Positions 18,512 through 63,612 of a stretch of 64,000 bases of DNA are shown piece by piece. The position numbers and the translations under genes were made by a program. The DNA lies in contig NZ_WHNW01000001.1 in NCBI RefSeq assembly GCF_009362845.1, positions 1 through 64,000 on the forward strand, read 5' to 3'. The notes under the pieces are model-generated. The model had not been told where the DNA came from. It searched no databases and saw only the letters and a program-made list of their open reading frames with translations. Position 1 is the stretch's first letter; every line of letters starts with the position of its first letter. The stretch comes from Ostreibacterium oceani. Its GTDB lineage: Bacteria > Pseudomonadota > Gammaproteobacteria > Cardiobacteriales > Ostreibacteriaceae.

Positions 18512-18591
18512 CGAGGTCAAGTAACCAGGTCAAGTGACAGGGCGAAACAACGGGGCGAAACAACGGGGCGAAACAACAGGGTGAATTAACG
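18505..18591. repeat. spacer built of 13-bp tandem repeats
   Basis: Two successive 13-bp repeat series fill the tgpA-yejE gap. CAAGTAACGAGGT, CAAGTAACCAGGT and CAAGTGACA... copy the tgpA stop. GGGCGAAACAACG occurs three times and then degenerates to GGGTGAATTAACG, reaching the base before the yejE ATG. Confidence 0.95.
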
Positions 18592-23213: not shown

Positions 23214-23394
23214 TCGGTGTACTGACGACAACGGGTACTGTTATTTGGTGAATATCGTCTGCCAATAAAGTGCTAATAAAAGTGCCAATAAAGCAGATTT
23301 TTATTTACTATTTGATTTACCACGCTACACTTAAGGAAGCGTAGCGTATTCCTTTATGAATGAAGGGCTAGTGCAGGAAAACAAAGGGTGTGAT

Positions 23395-23422
23395 TTTTAA
23401 ATGAAGCATTTTAAATGAAGCA
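23395..23422. repeat. perfect 14-bp tandem duplication of the relA start, making a minicistron
   Basis: TTTTAAATGAAGCA occurs twice without a gap. The second ATG (23415) starts relA. The first ATG (23401) encodes M-K-H-F-K and ends at a TGA that overlaps the relA ATG (ATGA). Confidence 0.97.
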
Positions 23423-25526
23423 ATTGTTCGATAACGCATTACTCCAGCCATCACCAGATGCACTGTGTCGGGATTTGGCGGTGTTTTATCCAGATGAAGC
23501 CTCGCGGCTCTGTGCGGAAGAAACCGCGCAGCTGCTTGCTAATTTGGGAATGGCGGTCGAAGTTATTCGGGTGGGGTATGTCGGTCGATTAAGGCTGCAA
23601 CCTGAGGGGTTACCAGCCGCTGCGTGGACGGCGTTAAATGCCGTTGAGCAGTCGCTGGTTACAGAGCTAGAAAAGCTTAATTTAATTGATATTCTTCACG
23701 AAAATAAAAACCAAGATATTGAGAAGTTGCGTCAAATGCTGATTGCCATGGCAAACGATATTCGCGTGGTGGTGATTAAACTGGCGCTGCAGCTTGTCGC
23801 GATGCGACATTTATCGGAATACCCAGAGGCCAAGCGTCTACAGCTTGCGCTACAAACCCGTGACATTCAAGCCCCCTTGGCCAATCGGTTGGGTATCGCA
23901 AAAATCAAGTGGGAATTAGAAGATCTCGCGCTAAAAGCACTAGAGCCGACAACGTATCGATTGATTTCTAGCTCATTATCCGAGCAACGCCGTGAGCGCG
24001 AAGCGTATGTGGAGTCTGTCATCCAACAACTACAGACCGAATTAGCAGGCGAAGGAATCACACAGGCAAAAATTTACGGGCGCGCCAAGCATATCAATAG
24101 CATTTTTTCTAAAATGAAAAAAAAGCATAAACGGCTTGAGGAAATTTATGACCTATTAGCACTGCGTGTTCAAGTCGATAACTTGCGTGATTGTTATACG
24201 GTTTTGGGTATCGTGCATAGTCTATGGCAGCATATTCCATCAGAATTTGATGACTATATTGCCAACCCAAAACCCAATGGCTATCAGTCATTGCACACGG
24301 CGGTCGTTGGCCCTGAAGGCAAAACCATCGAAATACAAATCAGGACCCATCAAATGCACGAATTTGCAGAACATGGGGTTGCCGCGCACTGGCGCTACAA
24401 AGAAAATAACGCAAAATCGACGGTATCAGAGCAACAAATCAACTGGTTACGCTCATTGATTGCCGAGCCCGATGAAGACCTGGTCGAAGAATTTACGGCA
24501 GAAATCGCCGAAGACCGCATTTATGTGATTACGCCTCAGGGTAAAGTCATGGATTTGCCGAATGGTGCCACGGCACTGGACTTTGCCTACCACGTGCATA
24601 CGGATATCGGGCACCGAACCAAAGGCGCGCGTGTCAATGGTCATATTGTGCCGATTTCACAGGCTTTGCAAACGGGTGATACCGTTGAAATTTTGACAGG
24701 CCCCAAAAACCAACCTAGCCGAGATTGGCTGAATTCACAGTATTTAAAATCACCCCGTGCTCGCGCAAAAGTCCGTTATTTTTTTAAACAATTAGAGCGT
24801 GATAGGGCCATAGAAGAAGGGCGAGATTTGCTCGAAGGACAATTAAGCCGATTGCATTTTTCACCCAAAGCCAGCGTGTTATTAGATGCGGCAAAACGAT
24901 TTAATTACAAAACCCTAGAAGATTTACATGCTGCGCTAGGATTCGGAGATTTAGGGTTGGTTGCTGTGGTCAATTATATTGAGCAGCAACACACAAATAA
25001 TAAAATAGATTTTGATGATATCGAAACGCGGTTGTCGCGCATTCCAATCCGTCACCACAAAAAAAAATCAGGTAGTGTGACGATTGCAGGGATTGATGAT
25101 TTGTTGATTTCGATGGCGACGTGTTGCAACCCTGTACCACCTGAACCAATCACCGGTTATATTACAAAAACCAAAGGTATTCGCATCCATCGCCATGATT
25201 GCAAAAATCTACAAGCAATGGCGATAACGCATCCCGACAATACTATTACCGTGGAGTGGGTGCCAGGGTTGTATGGGTTTTCAACATTGTTGCATATCCA
25301 AGGACAAGACCGCATTGGCTTGTTGCGTGATATTTCACAGGCCTTGGTCAATGAAGGAGTCACCATTCAAAAAGCAAACTTCGGACGCGATGAGGATTTA
25401 AATATTAACTTGCAAATGCAAATTACCGTGCATGACACCGATCATTTGCACCGAGCGCTTGAAAAAATAAAACAAATAAAAAACATACAATCGGCGATTC
25501 GTGTCGAAGGTAGCCTGTCTTCGTAG
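23415..25526 (+). CDS. relA: GTP pyrophosphokinase RelA (monofunctional ppGpp synthetase)
   Basis: RelA makes (p)ppGpp on stalled ribosomes. The protein is 703 residues. The N-terminal pseudo-hydrolase region lacks the HDxxED motif of active hydrolases. The synthetase domain follows (YGRAKHINSIFSKM, EEIYDLLALRV), with the RelA-specific EFDD at residues 277-280 rather than RFKD, and YIANPKPNGYQSLHT. A TGS domain lies near 370-430, a CC zinc-finger domain at about 569-595, and an ACT domain at about 630-700. It is somewhat shorter than E. coli RelA (744), mostly at the N-terminus. Its start codon lies in a 14-bp duplication, so translation may be coupled to a five-codon minicistron. Confidence 0.95.
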   Translation: MKQLFDNALLQPSPDALCRDLAVFYPDEASRLCAEETAQLLANLGMAVEVIRVGYVGRLRLQPEGLPAAAWTALNAVEQSLVTELEKLNLIDILHENKNQDIEKLRQMLIAMANDIRVVVIKLALQLVAMRHLSEYPEAKRLQLALQTRDIQAPLANRLGIAKIKWELEDLALKALEPTTYRLISSSLSEQRREREAYVESVIQQLQTELAGEGITQAKIYGRAKHINSIFSKMKKKHKRLEEIYDLLALRVQVDNLRDCYTVLGIVHSLWQHIPSEFDDYIANPKPNGYQSLHTAVVGPEGKTIEIQIRTHQMHEFAEHGVAAHWRYKENNAKSTVSEQQINWLRSLIAEPDEDLVEEFTAEIAEDRIYVITPQGKVMDLPNGATALDFAYHVHTDIGHRTKGARVNGHIVPISQALQTGDTVEILTGPKNQPSRDWLNSQYLKSPRARAKVRYFFKQLERDRAIEEGRDLLEGQLSRLHFSPKASVLLDAAKRFNYKTLEDLHAALGFGDLGLVAVVNYIEQQHTNNKIDFDDIETRLSRIPIRHHKKKSGSVTIAGIDDLLISMATCCNPVPPEPITGYITKTKGIRIHRHDCKNLQAMAITHPDNTITVEWVPGLYGFSTLLHIQGQDRIGLLRDISQALVNEGVTIQKANFGRDEDLNINLQMQITVHDTDHLHRALEKIKQIKNIQSAIRVEGSLSS

Positions 25527-37038: not shown

Positions 37039-37089
37039 ATTTATTAGCTAGGTCCATAGATAAGCCCATAGATAAGCCCATAGATAAGT
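37029..37089. repeat. 9-bp and 12-bp tandem repeats after the lrp gene
   Basis: GATTTATTA twice (37029-37046) overlaps the stop. CCATAGATAAGC occurs three times (37054-37089, last base changed in the third). Confidence 0.95.
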
Positions 37090-45790: not shown

Positions 45791-45824
45791 AATAGTGATA
45801 AGCAGTGATAAGCAGTGATAAGCA
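45791..45824. repeat. 10-bp tandem repeat
   Basis: AGTGATAAGC recurs three times after degenerate TAATGATGC copies (about 45728-45750). It lies between the DUF3108 gene and the glycosyltransferase gene. Confidence 0.95.
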
Positions 45825-45914
45825 GGTAAGTGTTTCGAATGCTATTTGCATTATGCAAAAGTGATTTGTCGAGACGACAGTTAATCAGACGGTTGTAAAT
45901 TTATATCATAACCA

Positions 45915-61485: not shown

Positions 61486-63612
61486 ATGAATCAAACACGA
61501 AAAATATTAGTCACTAGTGCCTTGCCATATGCCAATGGAGACATCCATTTGGGTCATTTAGTCGAATATATTCAGACGGATATATGGGTTAGGTTTATGC
61601 GTATGCAAAATCATGACGTGATTTACGTTTGCGCAGACGATGCGCACGGCACACCGATTATGCTACGCGCCGAGCAAGAGGGCATTACACCACAACAGTT
61701 AATCGATCGCGTGCATCAGGCGCATAGTCGAGATTTTGCCCAATTTTTAGTCGCGTTTGACAATTTTTATTCAACACATTCGCCTGAGAACGAGCAATTT
61801 GCCACGGATATTTATCGCCGTTTAAAAGCCAATGGATACATTACGGAAAAAACGATTACGCAGGCGTATGATGCTGAAAAACAAATGTTTTTGCCCGATC
61901 GGTTTGTCAAAGGTAGCTGCCCAAAATGTGGGGCGGCAGACCAGTACGGCGACAATTGTGAGCGCTGTGGTGCGACTTATGATCCGTTGGATTTAATCAA
62001 CCCTGTTTCGGTGATTTCAGGCCAACCCCCAGTGGAAAAGGACTCGCTGCATTACTTTTTTGATTTGCCTAAGATGACACCTTTTTTGAAAAACTGGCTA
62101 GACACCGCCAATATTCAGCCCGAAATTCGCAATAAAATGCAAGAATGGTTTGATGCGGGTTTAAACGCGTGGGATATTTCGCGTGACGCGCCTTATTGGG
62201 GCTTTAAAATTCCAGAGACAGCGGATAAGTATTTTTACGTATGGCTGGATGCGCCGATTGGTTATATGGCGAGTTTACAACACTATTGTCACCAACACCA
62301 AATTGATTTTGATGCTTACTTTAATGAAAACAGTCGCGCTGAAATGTATCATTTTATCGGGAAAGATATTGCGTATTTTCACACGCTATTTTGGCCTGCA
62401 ACATTAAAGGGCAGTGGTTATCGCGTGCCGACGGGTGTTTTTTGTCACGGTTTTTTAACCGTCAATGGCGAAAAAATGTCAAAATCACGGGGTACTTTTA
62501 TTAAAGCCTCAACTTATCTCGACCACTTGCGTCCTGAATATTTGCGCTATTATTTTGCGGCAAAACTATCCGCTAGCGTCGAGGATATTGATTTAAACCT
62601 AACTGACTTTAAGCAAAAAAATAACAGTGATATTGTCGGCAAGTTGGTTAATCTCGCCAGTCGCTGCGCGGGCTTTATTAATAAACGTTTTGACCATACT
62701 TTGGCTAATGCACTGGATACGCCCGCCTTGTTTAACGAAGCCGCAGAACGCATCGCAAACGACATCGCACAGGATTTTGAGGCGCGTGAATACGCGCGTG
62801 CTATGCGCCAGATTATGGCATTGGCGGATAAAGCCAATGAATACATCGACAGTGCAAAACCCTGGGTGTTAATCAAAGACCCGACTCAACACGATAAAGT
62901 CCATGCGATTTGTACAACAGGAATTAACTTGTTTTATCAGCTTATTGTTGCGTTAAAGCCTGTAATGCCACAATTGGCAGCCGATACCGAAGCGTTTTTA
63001 AATATTCCATCTAGCCAGTGGAAATCGGCGGGTACGGCACTGTTGGGGCATGCCATTAACCCATTCAAGCCACTTGCTGAGCGTATTGATGACAGCGCGA
63101 TTGACGCAGTGATTGATGGATCCAAAAGCGACCTAGATGCGAATAACCCTAATAACGTGAGTAAGGTGAATGACGTGAGTAATGTGAGTAATGTGAGTAA
63201 TGTGAGTAATGTGAGTAACGTAAATAACGCGGACACTAAAAAATCAGGTGAGCAAACCGTAGAAACCGTGACACAAGAACAACCCACTATCGACATCCAA
63301 GACTTTACCAAACTGGATTTACGTGTGGCACGCGTGGTTAACTGTGAGGCCGTTGAAGGTGCTGATAAATTACTTAAATTTCAGCTTGATGTCGGTGAAC
63401 TAGGTGAACGTCAAGTTTTTTCAGGCATTAAAGCCTATTACCCAAATCCGTCGGATTTGATTGGGGAACAAGTGGTTTTGGTTGCCAATCTCGCACCACG
63501 AAAAATGCGATTTGGGCTTTCTGAAGGGATGATATTATCCTCTGAAAATGCCAGTGGGTTGTGTTTAGTGCCAGCGGGATTATCAGCAACGCCAGGCGAC
63601 AAAATAAAATAA
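61486..63612 (+). CDS. metG: methionyl-tRNA synthetase
   Basis: MetG charges initiator and elongator tRNA-Met. The 708-residue enzyme (from the ATG at 61486) has HIGH as HLGH (residues 21-24), a Cys zinc-knuckle pair ([18 protein letters not shown], about 145-162), KMSKS ([11 protein letters not shown], about 331) and a helical anticodon-binding domain. The C-terminal tRNA-binding (EMAP-II/Trbp111-like) domain ([17 protein letters not shown]... to the end) mediates dimerisation in long-form enzymes. The linker between the last two domains contains a nonapeptide-scale DNA repeat coding V-S-N triplets. The frame extends upstream to 61426 but homology begins at [18 protein letters not shown]. 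Confidence 0.98.
63157..63228. repeat. in-frame 9-bp repeat in metG, eight units
   Basis: Eight consecutive 9-mers related to GTGAGTAAT; three central units are identical and encode V-S-N. They lie in the linker between the anticodon-binding and C-terminal tRNA-binding domains. Confidence 0.97.

Follow-up and report, generated by a model that had tools for sequence, protein, structure and literature searches.

This study revealed that the relA gene of Ostreibacterium oceani begins within a perfect 14-bp tandem duplication, the upstream copy of which supplies an additional ATG opening a five-codon minicistron that ends on the relA start codon. The feature is real, and its cause is a mutation type that is ordinary for this genome. 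We consider it probable that a slippage-type duplication has been tolerated here without a regulatory role, and that relA is now mostly coupled to the minicistron. The following elements of the window (the whole stretch of 64,000 nucleotides that was analysed) are involved.

Positions 23322 to 23347, forward strand: inverted repeat ACGCTAC...GTAGCGT with a 7-bp stem, between the ABC-transporter gene and relA; not called as a terminator.
Positions 23356 to 23400, forward strand: 14-codon open frame MNEGLVQENKGCDF, the TAA of which abuts ATG1 (TAAATG); from the sequence and Shine-Dalgarno scoring.
Positions 23383 to 23393, forward strand: Shine-Dalgarno site AAAGGGTGTGA, -9.1 kcal/mol with the 16S tail; from pairing energy.
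Positions 23395 to 23408, forward strand: duplication copy 1, TTTTAAATGAAGCA; read from the sequence.
Positions 23401 to 23418, forward strand: five-codon minicistron ATG AAG CAT TTT AAA TGA (MKHFK); read from the sequence, translation putative.
Positions 23409 to 23422, forward strand: duplication copy 2, which holds the relA start codon; read from the sequence.
Positions 23415 to 25526, forward strand: relA, a RelA/SpoT-family (p)ppGpp synthetase of 703 aa, the start of which overlaps the minicistron stop; from family models.

The two copies of the 14-bp unit lie head-to-tail and are 100% identical, as the original prediction had stated, and a genome search found the unit at no other place. 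ATG1 (23401-23403) is followed, again as predicted, by the codons for MKHFK and a TGA (23416-23418) that overlaps the relA ATG (23415-23417). Stop and start share the ATGA at 23415-23418 on the same strand, which is the overlap expected of a termination-reinitiation pair. A TAA at 23412-23414 lies in the relA frame and directly abuts the relA ATG, so that no in-frame upstream start exists and 23415 is the first possible ATG. A frameshift fusion of MKHFK to RelA was considered and rejected: a -1 slip at TTT AAA runs into this TAA before the relA ATG, and no such fusion is therefore expected. The 14-codon frame at 23356-23400 is probably untranslated, because its own ATG has no well-placed Shine-Dalgarno site.

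With regard to the downstream gene, its membership of the RelA/SpoT family was confirmed. Its product, 703 aa long, is accepted by the model of the RelA/SpoT subfamily, and profile searches found the synthetase, TGS and ACT domains. The score against the NCBIfam RelA equivalog NF008124 (590.8 bits) lies below the cut-off of 728, yet this was the best-scoring model for the product. The protein has EFDD at the acidic site of the synthetase and lacks the HDxxED motif, a combination that we take to be characteristic of RelA rather than SpoT; the probable assignment of 23415-25526 as a genuine RelA-type synthetase rests on these two features. The genome holds a second long RSH gene (C6:51646-52854).

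Pairing energies were calculated with the usual 16S tail, GGATCACCTCCTTT. The site AAAGGGTGTGA is separated from ATG1 by 7 nt and from the relA ATG by 21 nt; pairing at the relA ATG itself reaches just -0.8 kcal/mol, which amounts to no site. The site of ATG1 is at least as strong as that of 92% of called genes, which were scored over a spacing range of 3-14 nt, and the minicistron has the initiation site expected of the upstream member of a coupled pair. With only one copy of the unit, the leader would place this site 7 nt before relA, so it is the minicistron that has gained the ribosome site through the duplication.

We propose that a replication-slippage-type event copied 14 bp of the relA start region. 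As the left edge of the duplication lies just 3' of the Shine-Dalgarno site, the old site would now serve the upstream ATG copy, which is out of frame and would end after five codons in ATGA. The most likely course is that ribosomes load at 23401, translate MKHFK, terminate at 23416-23418 and then reinitiate at 23415 to produce RelA. Some direct initiation at 23415 may occur as well, either from the site 21 nt away or independently of any site in the A/T-rich leader. In this way relA would stay expressed, at a changed level, and the duplication is most likely a tolerated mutation with no regulatory role. With a strong site 7 nt before ATG1 and none at the relA ATG, it appears likely, from the placement of the site and the overlap, that termination-reinitiation brings ribosomes to relA. 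The original claim of reinitiation after the minicistron is plausible to this extent and has more behind it than the original prediction could draw on, since ATG1 has the one good Shine-Dalgarno site; the coupling itself we infer. Of 14 overlapping gene pairs that were tested, 13 proved strictly coupled (PMC6728339). E. coli pairs often reinitiate only where a Shine-Dalgarno site is close to the second start (PMC6728339), and the relA start, which has none nearby, calls for caution in this respect.

Upstream of relA in Ostreibacterium oceani lies a yejF-like ABC-transporter ATPase gene, which ends 201 nt before relA. The regions upstream of relA differ in relatives of the same order, where relA is located 3' of a pepN-type aminopeptidase gene. 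The protein encoded there matches PF17432, a domain which we take to denote pepN. An ATGA overlap of pepN and relA was found in 6 of the 11 loci examined; in the remaining pepN-relA loci, the genes are at most one base apart in two and 15 nt apart in one. The six overlapping loci (L003, L004, L008, L009, L011 and L012) show an arrangement that is absent from the Ostreibacterium oceani genome, in which the pepN-type gene is on another contig than relA. Since relA overlaps pepN in this manner in more than half of the loci, a coupled start would be no new kind of arrangement for relA and is probably common in the order, though the upstream cistron there is a real gene.

The duplication belongs to a population that extends over the genome. 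Perfect tandem duplications with a period of 9-25 were counted in 1.96 of the 2.18 Mb of one draft genome (36 contigs), with crude gene calls (longest non-overlapping ORFs), and amounted to 754 arrays (38.6 per 100 kb). The 238.6 kb of noncoding DNA contain 363 of them (152 per 100 kb), about nine times the density of the 302 that lie wholly in coding DNA (17.6 per 100 kb). The period is divisible by three in 285 of the 302 coding arrays, whereas noncoding periods are spread 123:132:108 over the three mod-3 classes. This coding bias indicates that the class is real and frame-selected in genes, and not assembly noise. Markov shuffles yielded 1-4 arrays, all with a period below 12, and eight samples from the same order had 1.7-8.3 arrays per 100 kb, with one exception at 16.7. 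The perfect 14-bp tandem copy at relA is far above the shuffle expectation, and so are hundreds of other loci in the genome; the duplication is therefore not special to relA. It has the perfect head-to-tail copies and the period within 9-25 that define the class, which as a whole is enriched in noncoding DNA, and the noncoding density leads to an expectation of about 0.3 arrays in the 201-nt gap before relA.

The window itself contains about 20 perfect tandem arrays with a period of 9-18, including those at 2014-2068, 18540-18577, 37054-37088, 45794-45825 and 63175-63218. Many noncoding tandem duplications (10 in 11 kb) were also observed in an order relative of another family (G016:C1:660001-720000). 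As for the cause, loss of mutS, recJ or xseA was rejected because all three genes are present; exonuclease I is missing, but it is equally missing in relatives with few duplications.

The ATGA overlap results from a period of 2 mod 3 and the A that follows the ATG, unless an earlier stop intervenes. Among the duplicated ATGs of noncoding arrays, the frame of copy 1 stops at -3 to +4 of the second ATG in 36 of 145 cases (about 25%), and in 20 of 45 where the period is 2 mod 3. The overlap at relA is an arithmetic by-product of the duplication and no independent sign of design. Such duplications are also present at several other gene starts, among them C1:15429 (VNYLS, GTGA), C2:265652 (MGN) and C2:123417 (MLTL, TAAATG). 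At the last of these, on the reverse strand, a 15-bp duplication creates two tandem ATG TTG ACC TTG TAA minicistrons abutting the ATG of a 165-aa gene. All four out-of-frame start duplications in genes of at least 150 aa end on the true start, compared with 23 of the 89 ATGs that are duplicated in noncoding arrays; these numbers are too small, and the figure is weakened further because one of the four, C3:123781, probably starts one codon later. It is rather doubtful that start duplications survive where the first copy yields a short cistron whose end coincides with the true start, with coupling rescuing expression, and that relA is one such case in which the RelA level depends on the minicistron.

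The leader offers no sign of regulation. Folding around the relA start, which is A/T-rich, was no better than that of shuffles (z 0.63) and revealed no unusual structure, which speaks against an RNA structure acting as a switch. Scans of the gap before relA for sigma-70 promoters and terminators called no sites, and the MKHFK codons contain neither a run of a regulatory codon nor a stall signal, so that the structured leader or codon run of a regulatory leader peptide is absent. A literature search for an upstream ORF of relA found none. A scan for the hairpin before relA (ACGCTACACTTAAGGAAGCGTAGCGT and its flanks) with up to 6 mismatches gave two matches, itself (C1:23323, forward strand) and C1:348949 (reverse strand). 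The latter match is the reverse complement, with almost identical flanks, and could be either a small repeat dispersed in the genome or a peculiarity of the scan.

Special control of relA by the minicistron is unlikely, and the predicted novel control of ppGpp synthesis found no support. A selected element, in which RelA synthesis would depend on MKHFK translation, for example through slow decoding or peptidyl-tRNA drop-off in starvation, is permitted by the architecture, with its strong site on ATG1 and its ATGA overlap. We nevertheless regard it as very improbable, as the duplication is one among hundreds of its kind, roughly one in four duplicated noncoding ATGs gives the overlap, and the leader is unstructured and has no regulatory codon run. 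Hardly any weight is given to a slippage-reversible switch, by which gain and loss of the 14-bp copy would make relA initiation alternate, among the cells of a population, between a direct and a coupled mode. Some arrays in the genome have reached 3-6 copies, so copy-number changes do happen; the relA array, however, has two copies only, and two-copy tandem arrays revert rarely.

A possible but unlikely alternative is a neutral duplication with a minicistron of little consequence, in which 30S subunits at the Shine-Dalgarno site also reach the relA ATG and initiation there is mostly independent. The A/T-rich leader, with folding no better than in shuffles, is compatible with this, as is the frequency of weak sites in the genome, a quarter of called genes having -3.5 kcal/mol or weaker. 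At 21 nt from the sole site, however, the relA ATG falls beyond the 3-14 nt over which called genes were scored, and it would be covered by a ribosome on ATG1, given the extent of a ribosome footprint. A sequencing or assembly artefact might be suspected in a draft of 36 contigs; 28 bp, however, fit within every read, and the predominance of periods divisible by three among coding duplications marks the class as real, which makes this explanation barely credible.

If ribosomes pass from MKHFK to relA, relA represents a neat natural case of a chance duplication that made a coupled start out of a simple one and was tolerated. This genome, in which noncoding DNA carries about 1.5 short tandem duplications per kb, is a good place to watch their filtering by reading frame and at start codons.

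In comparison with described termination-reinitiation pairs (ATGA/TGATG; PMC6728339), the relA start has the shared ATGA, the single strand and a second start with no good site in common; in contrast, its upstream cistron consists of five codons derived from a start duplication and is not a gene, and its coupling is putative. Short ORFs that merely deliver ribosomes have been described, including MIRU elements at start codons, in which an inserted repeat becomes coupled with a -4 nt spacing (review PMC12548453). Like these elements and the cassettes of bicistronic designs (PMC5995908), the relA minicistron is short, brings its own Shine-Dalgarno site and terminates within the start of the real gene, whereas the insert at relA is a 14-bp local duplication and neither a mobile repeat nor a leader made by design. 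A further parallel is the pepN-relA junction of the order relatives, which likewise places the relA start inside an ATGA overlap; there, the upstream cistron is an aminopeptidase gene, whereas here it is the minicistron, with the ABC-transporter gene 201 nt away.
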